Origin: Nocardioides marmoriginsengisoli
Lineage (GTDB): Bacteria > Actinomycetota > Actinomycetes > Propionibacteriales > Nocardioidaceae
Assembly (NCBI RefSeq): GCF_003725695.1
Contig: NZ_RJSE01000007.1
Coordinates: forward strand, 1,366,508 to 1,430,507
DNA: 64,000 nt
Direction of reading: 5' to 3'
The notes below the pieces were generated by a model. That model worked only from the letters and a program-made list of their open reading frames with translations. It had not been told where the DNA came from and did not search any database. Both the position numbers and the translations under genes were made by a program. The number at the start of each line of letters is the position of its first letter. Within the stretch, counting starts at the first letter, position 1. Shown here in pieces: positions 29,417-52,709 of the stretch.

Positions 29417-31128
29417 CGCGCACGCGACTCGCCGCGCTGCTCGCCGGCCTGCTCGCCGCGGCGGTGGCCGCGGGATGCAGCACGCTGCCGGTGACCGGCC
29501 CGGTGCACACCCGTGCCGACGAGGACACCAACTCGCTCAACCAGGCGCCGTACTTCGCCCCGCCGGGACCGACCCCGGGCGCCAGTACGACGGCGATCGT
29601 CAACGGCTTCCTGCTGGCCATCCAGGCGAACCCGCCGAGCACCGCGGTCGCGCGCTCGTTCCTCTCCGACGCGGCCAGGACGACCTGGAAGCCGGTGCAG
29701 GGCACGATCGTGTACGACGGCGCCGACGTCGAGGAGGACGGCAGCCAGCGGGTGGACGTCCGGCTCTCCGGTTCGCACCTGCTCGACCAGCGCGGCGCCT
29801 GGCTCGGCGCCTCGGCCGGCTCGACGTCCCGGCTGCCGTTCGTGCTCACCCAGGAGCACGGGGAGTGGCGGATCGCGAACCCGCCGACCTCGCTGCCGGT
29901 GCCGACGTCGTACTTCCGCAGCCTCTACGTGCCGTACACGTTGTACTTCTACGACCGCACCGGCAGCGTCCTGGTGCCGACCCGGATCTACCTCCCGCGC
30001 GGCGAGCAGATCGCGTCGAACCTGGTGCGCGGGCTGCTCGACGGACCGGGTGCCGCCGTCGCCGGCCTCGACTCCGGGGTGACCACCAACGCGGACGGCA
30101 TCGCCGAGGTCGGACTCGGCCCGGAGGCGCAGCGGCTCACGCCGCCGGACCTGCACCGGCTGATCGTCCAGCTCTCCTGGACCCTGCGCCAGGTCCCGGG
30201 GATCACCCGGCTCCGGGTGACGGCCGACGGGGTCCCGGTGCCGCTGCCCGACGGCCAGAGCGACGTGAGCCTGACCGAGCGGCTGGAGTACGACCCGGTG
30301 ACGGCGCCGGCGCGCGAGGTCGTCGCGATCTCCGAGGGCCGGGTCCAGCGGATCGAGCGGCAGGGCGCGACGCCGGTGGGCGGCCCGCTGGGCCAGCCCG
30401 GCTTCGCGCTCCGCTCGGTCGCGCAGAGCGTCGAGCGCGGAGAGCTGGCCGCGGTGGCCGGCAACGGCTCGCAGCTGTACGTCGCCCGCGACCGGGGCGC
30501 CACCGGCGCTACTCGGGTGCAGACCCCGATCACCGGTGCCGAGAACCTGCTCCGGCCGGCCTACGACCGGTTCGGCGGGCTCTGGGCGGTCGATGCCGCC
30601 CGCGGCGGCGCGGTGGTGCACCTGGTCACGGCCGGCACGGACCGGGTCGTCCGGGTGCCCGGGATCAGCGGCCGCCGGATCAGCGCGTTCACGGTGACCC
30701 GGGACGGTGCCCGCCTGGTCGCCGGGATCGCCGGCTCGTCGTCGACCTCGCTCGCGGTGGCCGAAGTGGTCCGGGCCGAGCGCGGCCGGGTGGCGCGGGT
30801 GGTCGAGGGAGGCCGGGTCACGGTGCCGGGCAGCAACCTCGGCTCGATCGTCGACGTCGGCCAGGACGGGCCGACCACCGCGGCCGTGCTGACGCTCAGC
30901 GACTCCGGCACCCGGCACGTGCTGTCGGTCGAGCTGGACGGTTCGCCGGGGGACCAGATCGGTACCCCGGACCCGGTGCCGGACCACCTGGTCGCCCTGG
31001 TCGTCAGTCCGGACCCGAGCCTGCCGGCACGTGCGGTGGCGGCCGATGGTCGACTGCTCGAGCTCACCGGCTCCGGGCAGTGGGCGCGGATCGCGTCCGA
31101 CGTCCTCACAGCGACCTACGCGCAGTAA
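29413..31128 (+). CDS. lpqB: Lipoprotein LpqB
   Basis: A 571-residue lipoprotein that modulates MtrAB signalling in mycobacteria. The signal peptide ends in a lipobox AAGC with Cys22. A GerMN-like domain (about 180-290, with LYFYDRTGSVLVPTRIYLPRG) is followed by a C-terminal beta-propeller-like domain (LRPAYDRFGGLWAVDAARGG). The ATG overlaps the mtrB stop as ATGA. This mtrA-mtrB-lpqB order is universal in actinobacteria. Confidence 0.93.
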   Translation: MTRTRLAALLAGLLAAAVAAGCSTLPVTGPVHTRADEDTNSLNQAPYFAPPGPTPGASTTAIVNGFLLAIQANPPSTAVARSFLSDAARTTWKPVQGTIVYDGADVEEDGSQRVDVRLSGSHLLDQRGAWLGASAGSTSRLPFVLTQEHGEWRIANPPTSLPVPTSYFRSLYVPYTLYFYDRTGSVLVPTRIYLPRGEQIASNLVRGLLDGPGAAVAGLDSGVTTNADGIAEVGLGPEAQRLTPPDLHRLIVQLSWTLRQVPGITRLRVTADGVPVPLPDGQSDVSLTERLEYDPVTAPAREVVAISEGRVQRIERQGATPVGGPLGQPGFALRSVAQSVERGELAAVAGNGSQLYVARDRGATGATRVQTPITGAENLLRPAYDRFGGLWAVDAARGGAVVHLVTAGTDRVVRVPGISGRRISAFTVTRDGARLVAGIAGSSSTSLAVAEVVRAERGRVARVVEGGRVTVPGSNLGSIVDVGQDGPTTAAVLTLSDSGTRHVLSVELDGSPGDQIGTPDPVPDHLVALVVSPDPSLPARAVAADGRLLELTGSGQWARIASDVLTATYAQ

Positions 31129-31189
31129 GTTCTGCACAGGGCGTCCGGTGGCCGTTGCTCGGTCCGGTCGGCGGGCGCAGGCTGGCCGG

Positions 31190-32017
31190 GTGCTGGACGC
31201 CGCGCTCGACCTCGCGTTCGGGGCGACCTGCGCCTGCTGCCGGCGTCCGGGACGGATCCTCTGCCGGGACTGCCGCCCGCTGCTGCCGAGCTCGGGGTTC
31301 CCGGTCCGTCCCGATCCGGCGCCGCCCGGTCTCGCCCCCGCCTTCGCCGCCGGCTGGTACGACGCCCCGCTCCGGCCGCTGCTGCTGGCGCACAAGGAGC
31401 GCCGGGCGTTCGCGCTCGCCCGACCGCTCGGCGAGGTGCTGGGCGCGGTCGTCGGGGGAGCGGTCCCGGCGGATCTGCCCGACGCGCTGCTGGTGCTGGT
31501 GCCGGTTCCCTCGCGGGCCGCGACGGTGCGCGAGCGCGGCCACGACCCGGTACGCCGGATGGTGCTGGCCGCGGCCCGGGCGCTGCGCCGCGACGGGGTC
31601 CCGGTCGTCGTACCGGCACTGCTCCGGCAGTGCGCCGACGTGCGTGACCAGGCCGGCCTGGACGCAGCGGCGCGGGCCGCCAACCTGGACGGCAGCCTGC
31701 GGGTCCGGCCGCGGGCCCAGCGGGCGCTCGCCCGGTCCGGCCGACCGGTCCGCGTGCTGGTCTGCGACGACGTGATCACCACCGGGGCGACCGCCCGGGA
31801 GGCGCAGCGAGCACTGGAGGCGGTCGGTCTCCCGGTGACCGCGGTGACGTCCCTGGCTGCGACCCGGAGGCGGAATCGGAACGGAATCGGGATGACTGCT
31901 ACCGATTTGTACAGGTGGCGGCTAACGTCTGTACATGGAGTCCGTCCGGGTCCGTGGTTGCGTCAGGAGTACCTCCTGGCAAGTCGATGCCAGTCGCAGG
32001 CGAAACGACCCACGTAA
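31190..32017 (+). CDS. ComF-family phosphoribosyltransferase-like protein
   Basis: ComF/GntX-type protein (mycobacterial Rv3242c position). A zinc-finger-like CACCRRPGRILCRDC lies at the N-terminus, and the PRPP-binding loop VLVCDDVITTGATAREA near residues 190-206. With the GTG at 31190 it has 275 residues; a GTG at 31148 would add 14. The normal family end is reached around SLAATRRR; the last ~45 residues are unlike the family and are encoded by sequence that also forms the promoter and first third of the structured RNA before hpf. Function of the family outside competence is unclear. Confidence 0.8.
   Translation: MLDAALDLAFGATCACCRRPGRILCRDCRPLLPSSGFPVRPDPAPPGLAPAFAAGWYDAPLRPLLLAHKERRAFALARPLGEVLGAVVGGAVPADLPDALLVLVPVPSRAATVRERGHDPVRRMVLAAARALRRDGVPVVVPALLRQCADVRDQAGLDAAARAANLDGSLRVRPRAQRALARSGRPVRVLVCDDVITTGATAREAQRALEAVGLPVTAVTSLAATRRRNRNGIGMTATDLYRWRLTSVHGVRPGPWLRQEYLLASRCQSQAKRPT
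31908..31935 (+). promoter_or_regulatory. Putative start region of the hpf leader RNA with paired TGTACA sites
   Basis: TGTACA occurs at 31908-31913 and 31930-31935, 22 bases apart (two helix turns). Between them TAACGT (31923-31928) fits a -10 hexamer. Transcription would start around 31935, right where the structured RNA begins. No good -35 was seen, and the whole element lies inside the comF reading frame. Confidence 0.4.
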
Positions 32018-32177
32018 GGCGGTAGAACGCCGATCACGGTGCGGCTTAGTCGTAAGTCCTGCCCATCGCCCCTCGTCAGATACGGGGACGCGAGGGAGAA
32101 GGCCAGTAGTGGCACAAGCTGCGAACGTCTCAGCAGGCGGGTGTGGGGGAGAAGACCAGGTCGGCCGGACGGACTCC
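31937..32177 (+). ncRNA. Structured leader RNA before hpf, probably raiA RNA
   Basis: GGAGTCCGTCCGG (31937-31949) and CCGGACGGACTCC (32165-32177) are perfect complements and would close a 241-nt domain with a 13-bp helix. Inside are further stems: CAGGAG/CTCCTG (31964-31978), GTCG/CGAC (31993-32009), GGCG/CGCC around GTAGAA (32018-32031), GGCTTA/TAAGTC with a GTCG loop (32043-32058), CCCTCG/CGAGGG (32070-32096), and a long-range GCAGG/CCTGC (31996-32000 with 32058-32062). Size and position directly before the raiA/hpf gene fit the raiA RNA motif described in Firmicutes and Actinobacteria. The name is inferred from context; the folding was done by eye. Confidence 0.7.
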
Positions 32178-32230
32178 TCCGATCGTTCTACCCCTGTGCA
32201 GTAGCGCGCTCAACCAACCGGGAGGTCTGT

Positions 32231-32866
32231 ATGGACGTTGTGGTCAGCAGTCGGCACTGTGAAGTCTCGGAGCGGTTCCGCGAGCACGTGGAGGACAAGC
32301 TCGCCCGCCTGGAGAAGCACGATCATCGGATCATCCGCGTCGAGGTGCTGCTGGAGCGGGAGCGCAATGCCCGCCAGCCCGAGCGCCAGGTGCGGGTCGA
32401 GCTCACCGCGAAGTCGAAGGGCCCGATCCTGCGGGCCGAGGCCGCCGCCGAGGACAAGATGGCGGCGCTGGACCTCGCCCTGGACAAGATGTCCGCGCAG
32501 ATGCGCCGCGCGGCCGACCGCCGCAAGGTGCACCGCGGTCAGCACGCGCCGGAGTCGGTGAGCCGGGCGATGGGCCGGGCCGCCGACCCGGGCACCGCGG
32601 CCAGCAACGGCGCCCTCGTCGTCGAGGAGCGCGAGGACATCGCCGAGCACTGGGTCGGACCGGTGGCCGTGACCGGGGACGGACCGCTGGTGGTCCGTGA
32701 GAAGACGCACCCGGCGACCCCGATCAACCTGGAGCAGGCGCTCTACGAGATGGAGCTCGTGGGTCACGACTTCTACCTGTTCGTGGACAAGGAGAGCGAG
32801 CGGCCCTCTGTCGTCTACCGGCGCAAGGGGTACGACTACGGAGTGATCTCCCTCGATCTGACCTGA
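32231..32866 (+). CDS. hpf: Ribosome hibernation promoting factor, long form
   Basis: Binds the small subunit and drives 100S ribosome dimers in resting cells. It has 211 residues: an N-terminal RaiA domain (VVVSSRHCEVSERFREHVEDKL, then RVEVLLERERNARQPERQVRVEL) and a C-terminal dimerisation domain (PINLEQALYEMELVGHDFYLFVDKE, VVYRRKGYDYGVISL). GGGAGG lies 5 bases before the ATG. The open frame starts further upstream, but that part is the structured leader RNA. Matches mycobacterial Rv3241c in order. Confidence 0.93.
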   Translation: MDVVVSSRHCEVSERFREHVEDKLARLEKHDHRIIRVEVLLERERNARQPERQVRVELTAKSKGPILRAEAAAEDKMAALDLALDKMSAQMRRAADRRKVHRGQHAPESVSRAMGRAADPGTAASNGALVVEEREDIAEHWVGPVAVTGDGPLVVREKTHPATPINLEQALYEMELVGHDFYLFVDKESERPSVVYRRKGYDYGVISLDLT

Positions 32867-50900: not shown

Positions 50901-52709
50901 ACCCTGCTGGTGGCGGCGTTCGACCACCGCGACATCTTCCTGGACCCGAGCCCCGACCCGGCAGCGTCGTACGCCGAGCGCCGCCGGCTCTTCGACCTGC
51001 CGCGGTCGTCCTGGAAGGACTACGACACCGCGCTGATCTCGGCGGGCGGGGGCGTGTTCCCGCGCTCCGCGAAGTCGATCCCGCTCTCGCCCGAGGTGCG
51101 CGCCGTGCTCGGCGTGGAGGCGTCCGCGATGACTCCGGCCGAGCTGATGCGGGCGATCCTGCTCGCTCCGGTGGACCTGCTCTGGAACGGCGGGATCGGC
51201 ACCTACGTGAAGGCCGCCGCCGAGTCCGACGCGGACGCCGCGGACAAGGCGAACGACGCGATCCGGGTCGACGGCGGTGACCTGCGGGTGCGCTGCGTCG
51301 GTGAGGGCGGCAACCTGGGCTTCACGCAACGCGGCCGGATCGAGTTCGCGTTGACGGGTGGCCGGATCAACACCGACTTCATCGACAACTCCGCCGGCGT
51401 GGACACCTCCGACCACGAGGTGAACATCAAGATCCTGCTCGACAAGGTCGTCGGCGAGGGCGACCTCACCGGGAAGCAGCGCAACGAGCTGCTCGCCTCG
51501 ATGACCGACGAGGTCGGCGACCTGGTGCTGGCCGACAACTACGACCAGAACCTGGCGCTGGCCAACGCCGGCGCCCAGGCGCCCGCCCTGCTGCACGTCC
51601 ACGAGGACTGGATGCGGTCGCTGGAGGCCGCCGGCCTGCTCAACCGGGAGCTGGAGGCGCTGCCGTCCCGCCGCGAGGTGGCGGCCCGGATCGAGACCGG
51701 TGAGGGGCTCAGCGGCCCCGAGCTGGCGGTGCTGCTGTCGTACACCAAGATCGTGCTCGCCGATCAGCTGCTGGAGAGCGCGATCGCCGACGACCCGTTC
51801 CTCCGCGGCGACCTGTACCGGTACTTCCCGACCACGATGCGCCAGGACTACCGGACCGCGATGGAGGCGCACCCGCTGCGCCGCGAGATCGTGGTGACCC
51901 AGCTGGTCAACCAGCTCGTCAACGGCGCCGGGATGACCTACGTGCACCGGCTCGCCGGGGAGACCTCGGCGTCGACCGACCAGCTCGCGCTGGCCAACTT
52001 CGTCTCCCGGGAGATCTTCGGGGCGGCCGCGCTGAACCGGCAGATCAACGCGCTCGACAACCAGCTCGACGCCGAGGTGCAGACCCGGGTCCGGCTGGAG
52101 GTGCGCACCCTCGTCGAGCGGGCCAGCCGCTGGCTGGTCAACAACCGCCGGCTGCCGCTGGACAGCGAGGCGGTCGTCGAGGAGTTCGAGGTGACCGTCG
52201 AGAAGGTGACCGCGGCCCTGCCCGAGCTGATGACCGGACTCGAGCTGGCAGCCTTCGAGGCTCGCTCCGAGGCGTTCGTCGCGATCGGGGTGCCCGCCGA
52301 CCTGGCCGCCAAGGTGGCCGCCTGCCCGCCGGCGTACATGGTGCTCGGGATCGTGCAGACGGCGGCGCGGGCCGATGCCGACCCGCTGGAGGTGGCCCGG
52401 CTGCACTTCGCGCTCGCCGAGCTGCTCGGCCTGCCCGGGCTGGTGACCCGGATCCTGGCGCTGCCGAGGCGCGACCGGTGGCAGACGATGGCCAGGGCGG
52501 CCCTCCGCGACGACTTGCACAGCGTGCACGCCCAGCTGACCGGCCAGGCGCTCGACGCCACCGACCTGGAGGCGTGGCGGATGGCCAACGCCGCCGCGGT
52601 CGAGCGGGCGGCGGCCACGTTCGCAATGATCTGCGCCGACGAGGACGCCGACCTGGCCCGGATGTCGGTCGCACTGCGGGTGCTGCGATCGCTGGTCGAG
52701 GGGCCGTAG
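47907..52709 (+). CDS. gdh: NAD-specific glutamate dehydrogenase, large 180-kDa class
   Basis: A 1600-residue enzyme deaminating glutamate to 2-oxoglutarate, of the class of mycobacterial Rv2476c. The long N-terminal part has ACT-like regulatory domains ([34 protein letters not shown]). The catalytic region includes [38 protein letters not shown] and [17 protein letters not shown]. The C-terminal third is helical. GTG start. Long open frames on the opposite strand are mirror frames of this GC-rich gene. It may take up glutamate made by pruA. Confidence 0.95.
   Translation: [1600 protein letters not shown]

Follow-up and report, generated by a model that had tools for sequence, protein, structure and literature searches.

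A raiA (ModT) RNA of Nocardioides and its relatives lies within a predicted leaderless open reading frame upstream of hpf

Results

The hpf locus and its raiA RNA

The window—the whole stretch of 64,000 nucleotides of Nocardioides marmoriginsengisoli that we analysed, and to which all positions refer—gave a sole Rfam match above the gathering score, to RF03072, the raiA/ModT RNA. This identity had been proposed by a sequence-only reading of the same DNA, and the covariance search confirms it: the match covers the full-length model (155.7 bits against a gathering score of 101.3, E 6.3e-39) and, in the covariance alignment, the conserved core agrees with the Rfam consensus. The genome holds one copy of this RNA. 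The features of the locus are as follows.

31031..32017, + strand: comF-like open reading frame, with a weak, below-cut-off Pribosyltran (phosphoribosyltransferase) match
31899..31904, + strand: putative -35 element CTACCG, 18 nt before the -10 element
31923..31928, + strand: predicted -10 element TAACGT, from the conservation of TAnnnT
31935..31937, + strand: ATG, its A being the predicted transcription start (+1) and the ATG a putative leaderless start codon, from conservation
31935..32204, + strand: predicted leaderless upstream open reading frame (uORF) of 89 codons plus TAG, with the whole raiA RNA inside; no Pfam match
31937..31949, + strand: 5' strand of the P1 helix, GGAGTCCGTCCGG, from sequence and covariation
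31941..32173, + strand: raiA RNA (ModT), RF03072, 155.7 bits, model positions 1-209
31962..31980, + strand: hairpin within the insert that follows P1, assigned by position to the optional P2 of raiA
32165..32177, + strand: 3' strand of the P1 helix, CCGGACGGACTCC, from sequence and covariation
32220..32225, + strand: hpf ribosome site GGGAGG, from sequence
32231..32866, + strand: hpf/raiA gene, long-form ribosome hibernation factor of 211 aa, Ribosomal_S30AE (PF02482) and S30AE_C (PF16321)

The hairpin names P2 and P5 are assigned here by position only. The ATG of hpf is at 32231, and GGGAGG ends five bases 5' of it. By hpf, the best-matching named relatives are Nocardioides, Marmoricola and unclassified Propionibacteriales, which puts the window in Nocardioidaceae. 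The full-length covariance match, the closing helix P1 and the place between comF and hpf liken this RNA to the known raiA/ModT RNAs; a survey cited by PMC11706538 gives comFC upstream of the raiA RNA in 74% and the raiA gene downstream in 66%. On the other hand no intrinsic terminator was found in 31700-32400 by a simple scan, which distinguishes the locus from the known raiA/ModT.

In the window, the stop at which the comF-like frame usually ends has been lost: the frame runs on across the promoter, enters the 5' part of raiA and terminates at the conserved TAA of CCACGTAA. Besides the window, comF runs past the AUG at only one other locus, L142, among 93. In many relatives the comF stop codon lies at -12 relative to the ATG and is the TAA or TAG within the -10 box of the raiA promoter.

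A conserved ATG at the predicted transcription start

A simple scan of 31700-32400 detected no consensus sigma-70 promoter, and the -10 assignment rests on conservation. We collected 136 distinct raiA-bearing loci, from Nocardioidaceae, one other family of the order and two unplaced genomes. ATG stands at the predicted +1 in 136/136 of them—the search pattern demanded an ATG, and not one locus failed for lack of it—and TAnnnT is found exactly 6 nt 5' of it in 129. The -10 element is mostly TAGCGT or TAACGT, while at the -35 position the second base is T in 123/136 loci.

In Mycobacterium tuberculosis, the start-site rules described are a TANNNT -10 element centred 7-12 bp upstream and a purine start (PMC3898074). 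By these rules the A of the ATG at 31935 is the predicted +1, so that the transcript would be leaderless. As C at -1 and T at +2 are also favoured at M. tuberculosis start sites (PMC3898074), the conservation of CATG could be partly related to the promoter. In the alignment and the predicted fold, the G of this AUG is the outermost base of P1, and its A and U are unpaired.

The closing helix

That the segments 31937-31949 and 32165-32177 are exact 13-base complements, as the sequence-only reading had claimed, holds true. It had also called a chance pairing unlikely, and on this point the window disagrees: three perfect inverted 13-mers with spacers of 20-300 nt are present, and 20 dinucleotide shuffles gave 1.5 on average. 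The two others are at 51963/52066 and 55566/55630. The helix alone is thus within chance in a GC-rich window, and its reality rests on covariation among relatives.

Such covariation was found. In 93 distinct loci of the family, 11 pairs of the 13 are standard without exception, and each of the other two is so in 92; one position outward, pairing drops to 57%. Compensatory changes occur at six pairs: T-A/C-G at three, A-T/C-G at one and G-C/A-T at two, one of the latter in a single locus; these counts represent related sequences and not independent events. When other classes of the phylum are added, the 13 pairs are 90-100% standard over 120 rows; two of the 122 distinct rows, in which the anchors were not found, had been set aside. 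From these comparisons we identify the 13-bp helix as P1 of raiA plus outer pairs absent from the Rfam model.

In the other classes of the phylum (L146-L175), inspection by eye shows that raiA often has a TATAAT-like promoter. In several of these loci P1 is part of a more extended helix with a T run behind it, and may itself be a terminator.

A reading frame open through the whole RNA

From the AUG at the predicted +1 a frame runs open through the whole of the RNA; the sequence-only reading had overlooked this, and also that the G of this AUG belongs to the outermost P1 pair. In the window this uORF stops 26 nt before the start of hpf. In the 131 loci whose RNA has a clear 3' end, the AUG frame is open across the RNA in 130, the other two frames in 7 and 0. 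Five further loci have no matched 3' end; L203, L214 and L224 are open. Overall, the frame is open in 133/136 distinct loci, the three closed ones being L142 (at nt 216), L197 and L201 (both at nt 201, and both without a matched 3' end). Four loci outside this set (L081, L085, L092 and L136) also start with ATG, and their frames are open for 501 to 705 nt.

Two conserved blocks that contain stop codons are informative on the phase. Of 135 loci, 129 have the CCAYRTAA block in the AUG phase and 6 have it in the second stop-free phase; none has it in the phase that would read its TAA. Among the distinct spacings from the AUG to this block, across the P2 insert, 16 are divisible by three and 4 are not. 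Likewise TAGNNGTAA is never in the phase that would read its two stops (0/128 loci). In the 3' half of the RNA two frames are usually open, and this half is read in differing frames among species.

The gene hpf is downstream of raiA in 136/136 loci. The uORF ends before the hpf start in 98 and overlaps it by at most 4 nt in 8, and 95 of these 106 uORFs stop within 60 nt of the start; in 28/136 the uORF terminates inside hpf, in another frame. At two loci a fused product is possible: in L111 the AUG frame continues through raiA in frame into hpf with no stop, and in L214 it is in frame with hpf and free of stops to the end of the contig.

Length changes in steps of three

The variable hairpins of the RNA would be expected to change in length without constraint. 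Length changes were placed on a tree, with 70 raiA RNAs from other classes of the phylum as controls, 51 of them high-GC. In the part that holds P2, 46/53 length changes are multiples of three, against 3/23 in the controls (binomial 1e-15 versus one third; Fisher versus controls 1e-9). The next variable part behaves alike, with 49/67 against 3/13 (binomial 3e-11, Fisher 0.001). In the 3' half the preference for threes is absent (11/32 versus 9/32 in controls), and the frame is open there nonetheless.

No frame at all is open in 65/70 controls, and in 46/51 of those with high GC. In 23 of the 70 controls hpf lies at most 400 nt from raiA, and one of these 23 has an open frame, a misplaced row at a contig end. 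Proximity to hpf thus does not account for the open frame, and translation appears to be no general need of raiA-hpf loci. The reading frame of comF was considered as another cause of the spacing in threes and was rejected because comF, found in 93 of the 94 loci examined, stops 5' of the AUG in 91 of these 93.

Altogether, the frame of the uORF seems to be maintained by selection, judging from length changes that keep the frame in the 5' parts and from stop phases left unused, with a 3' part in which threes are not preferred.

Probable selection for readability rather than for a peptide

Pairs of close relatives were compared codon by codon. Differences at the first, second and third positions number 223/311/269 in the 5' part (58 pairs), 130/111/112 in the middle (39 pairs) and 201/173/139 in the 3' part (50 pairs), so that none of the three parts shows a third-position excess. 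In raw counts, nonsynonymous changes outnumber synonymous ones by 435 to 101 (5'), 199 to 33 (middle) and 327 to 70 (3'). These flat position counts and this raw nonsynonymous excess give no sign of purifying selection on amino acids, and a conserved small protein, tried as an explanation, is unsupported by them. The product of the window uORF has no match in a Pfam search. For the uORF product of another locus, L005, 37 predicted homologues were found in databases, none functionally named; one of them, P0036, contains PF02482 and fuses the uORF with a portion of an HPF.

As the codon counts reveal no amino-acid conservation, translation itself seems to be selected. The comparisons support the view that selection would favour a stop-free, readable RNA rather than a peptide. 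The flat codon signal would fit translation without selection on the peptide, yet it removes the usual signature of coding.

hpf loci without raiA

In a sample of 24 genomes of the genus, hpf is present in 24 and raiA in 12. With Rfam, no raiA was found in the 13 hpf loci of the 12 lacking genomes, while two positive controls did score. In the order and its neighbours, of 41 hpf loci with raiA missing or broken, 33 retain TANSGT-N6-ATG; 12 of the 33 are Kribbella, hence not independent. Behind the +1 ATG of raiA-less loci stand uORFs of 7 to 111 codons. The promoter and the ATG persist without raiA, so that both seem, from this comparison, to belong to the hpf transcript, raiA being a removable insert.

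Two loci retain remnants with a weak profile match and with promoter and ATG intact: L060, upstream of hpf, keeps only 35 profile positions at the 5' side and 54 at the 3' side, and L037 only the first 86 profile positions.

Discussion

We propose that, in this lineage, raiA is embedded in a leaderless uORF as the 5' part of the hpf transcript, and that loading of the AUG by ribosomes would race with the closing of P1; we estimate the probability of this main reading at about 0.6. The sequences themselves show the identity of raiA, the covariation of P1, where the AUG lies, that its frame is open and that length changes preserve this frame; the start site, an actual translation, the race, and a link to free 70S ribosomes and hpf output are inferred. 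Transcription would begin at the A of the ATG at 31935 and give a 5'-terminal AUG. A 70S ribosome loaded on this leaderless AUG—leaderless initiation by 70S ribosomes is described in other systems (PMC9031893, PMC9386245)—would read one frame through the whole raiA and, in most loci, would be released shortly before the start of hpf. The G of the AUG is paired in P1, whose 3' strand would be transcribed about 240 nt after the AUG, and this would set up a race on the nascent transcript. Early loading of a 70S ribosome would leave the domain unfolded and carry translation towards hpf, by coupling and perhaps by protection from Rho; if no ribosome is loaded, P1 would close and occlude the AUG, and the transcript would fold and accumulate as raiA RNA.

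Some observations run against this main reading. The codon positions have no third-position excess and nonsynonymous changes exceed synonymous ones in raw counts; length changes of the 3' half are not in threes (11/32); three of the 136 loci (L142, L197 and L201) are closed; the uORF enters hpf in another frame in 28/136; and in clostridia raiA is described as a trans-acting non-coding RNA (PMC11706538). Concerning the two halves of the model, late stops running into the gene lowered expression in the ppe2 leader of M. tuberculosis, and its authors excluded Rho as an account of this loss (PMC11260477), so that the Rho part of our model is without support there. Coupling appears to us the better-supported half, though it would not operate in a simple way at the 28 loci whose uORF enters hpf.

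HPF acts on 70S ribosomes, and a feedback loop is therefore conceivable. The raiA transcript, with its two fates, might sense free 70S ribosomes: idle 70S would load the AUG, unfold raiA and drive hpf, whose product would remove idle 70S, while unloaded transcripts would close P1 and become raiA RNA. This extension is a tentative one and we rather doubt it; if true, it would join a major structured RNA to ribosome hibernation through a feedback loop. A lineage that appears, under selection, to keep the whole RNA translatable just upstream of hpf would tie raiA to ribosomes by its sequence. More generally, our results suggest that reading-frame constraint can act, within a single branch, on an RNA classed as non-coding, and that frame-aware analysis can bring such cases to light.

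The open frame could also be a by-product of high GC and of conservation, in a plain non-coding raiA that happens to stand upstream of hpf. The full Rfam match would be expected from such an RNA, as would a 3' half usually open in two frames and with no preference for threes, and the lack of a codon-position signal. We nevertheless find this unlikely, given that the two 5'-proximal variable parts change in threes in the family and not in the controls, that high-GC controls are rarely open (5/51) and that stop phases are never used at the two conserved blocks. A functional small protein, written over the RNA, would account for the 37 predicted homologues of the L005 product, for an N-terminal motif conserved where the RNA is conserved, and for a frame that continues into hpf in L111, and in L214 as far as the contig reaches. 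The codon counts, however, with neither a third-position excess nor fewer nonsynonymous than synonymous changes, the 3' half whose frame differs between species and the window product without Pfam match render it quite improbable.

In another scheme a mature raiA, cut at the end of P1, would serve as a leaderless non-stop mRNA, at the 3' end of which 70S ribosomes are trapped. No in-frame stop occurs within the RNA in 133/136 loci and the AUG is at +1 in 136/136, as this scheme would have it; but 33 of the 41 hpf loci in which raiA was lost or broken still have the +1 AUG and a uORF, and the folded RNA pairs the G of the AUG in P1, and we would give it little chance of being right. As for a cis switch acting on the hpf ribosome site, the sequence-only reading had noticed CCTCC at 32176-32180 and its complement GGAGG within GGGAGG (32220-32225), and suggested that the former might mask the latter. 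Both motifs are indeed present, and in the window the 3' strand of P1 with its tail can pair with the GGGAGG region (-13.7 kcal/mol for the isolated duplex). That CCTCC, 3' of P1, would cover the ribosome site once P1 opens is on the contrary hardly credible: this anti-Shine-Dalgarno sequence is not conserved; of 128 distinct family loci, the window among them, 23 have CCTCC and 17 have CTCCTCC. The predicted fold of the window leader leaves P1 intact and pairs GGGAGG locally with the start of hpf, and in clostridia raiA acts in trans (PMC11706538). Masking by CCTCC was thus rejected.

The main reading, a raiA embedded in a leaderless uORF, departs from what is described for this RNA. In PMC11706538, raiA/ModT is a non-coding, trans-acting RNA present in more than 2,500 species, a very abundant discrete transcript in clostridia whose abundance rivals that of ribosomal RNA in C. 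difficile; its structures have been solved (PMC11751092, PMC12286853) and include the pseudoknots pk1 and pk2 (PMC11751092). It is treated as untranslated, whereas here an AUG stands at the predicted +1 and the frame is open to the end of the RNA. In the open-licence literature we found no report of an open frame in a raiA RNA.

Control by a uORF behind a structured leader is, by contrast, not without precedent. For one M. tuberculosis gene, translation of the uORF ahead of it, itself under riboswitch control, is described as essential (PMC11260477), and the Mbox uORF, with Rho-dependent termination, provides a second case (PMC12810186). These mycobacterial systems, the B12 riboswitch and the Mbox, share with our locus a structured leader and a uORF before the regulated gene. 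As described, the uORFs of ppe2 and of the Mbox each have a ribosome site of their own, next to an aptamer (PMC11260477, PMC12810186); the raiA uORF, unlike them, starts at the predicted +1 and covers a whole globular RNA that elsewhere stands alone. The ilvB-II motif of Corynebacterium (PMC10272879) is likewise an RNA motif holding a uORF, with all lengths divisible by three. It is however described as an amino-acid attenuator with a terminator and a meaningful peptide containing branched-chain codons, whereas the peptide is unconserved here.

Other leaders of hpf deserve mention. Searched against Rfam, ten loci without raiA or with a remnant of it, of which five are Kribbella, gave nothing above a family's cut-off and a single weak match below it, in L099. 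In 24 leaders, a subset of the 33 with a +1 ATG, a 5'-terminal hairpin is kept in 11 at p<=0.05 versus shuffles, several of these being close relatives; such a retention is suggestive only. In L036, L032 and L076, which lack raiA, terminator-like hairpins with T-rich tails are seen by eye just 5' of the hpf start, and suggest attenuation. The Kribbella loci (L094-L103, L105 and L106) carry another conserved hpf leader about 170-205 nt upstream, with a like promoter and +1 ATG and a uORF of 41-58 codons; in several of them a closing helix, ACACCCGCT/AGCGGGTGT, is found, and this leader is possibly an unnamed structured RNA.
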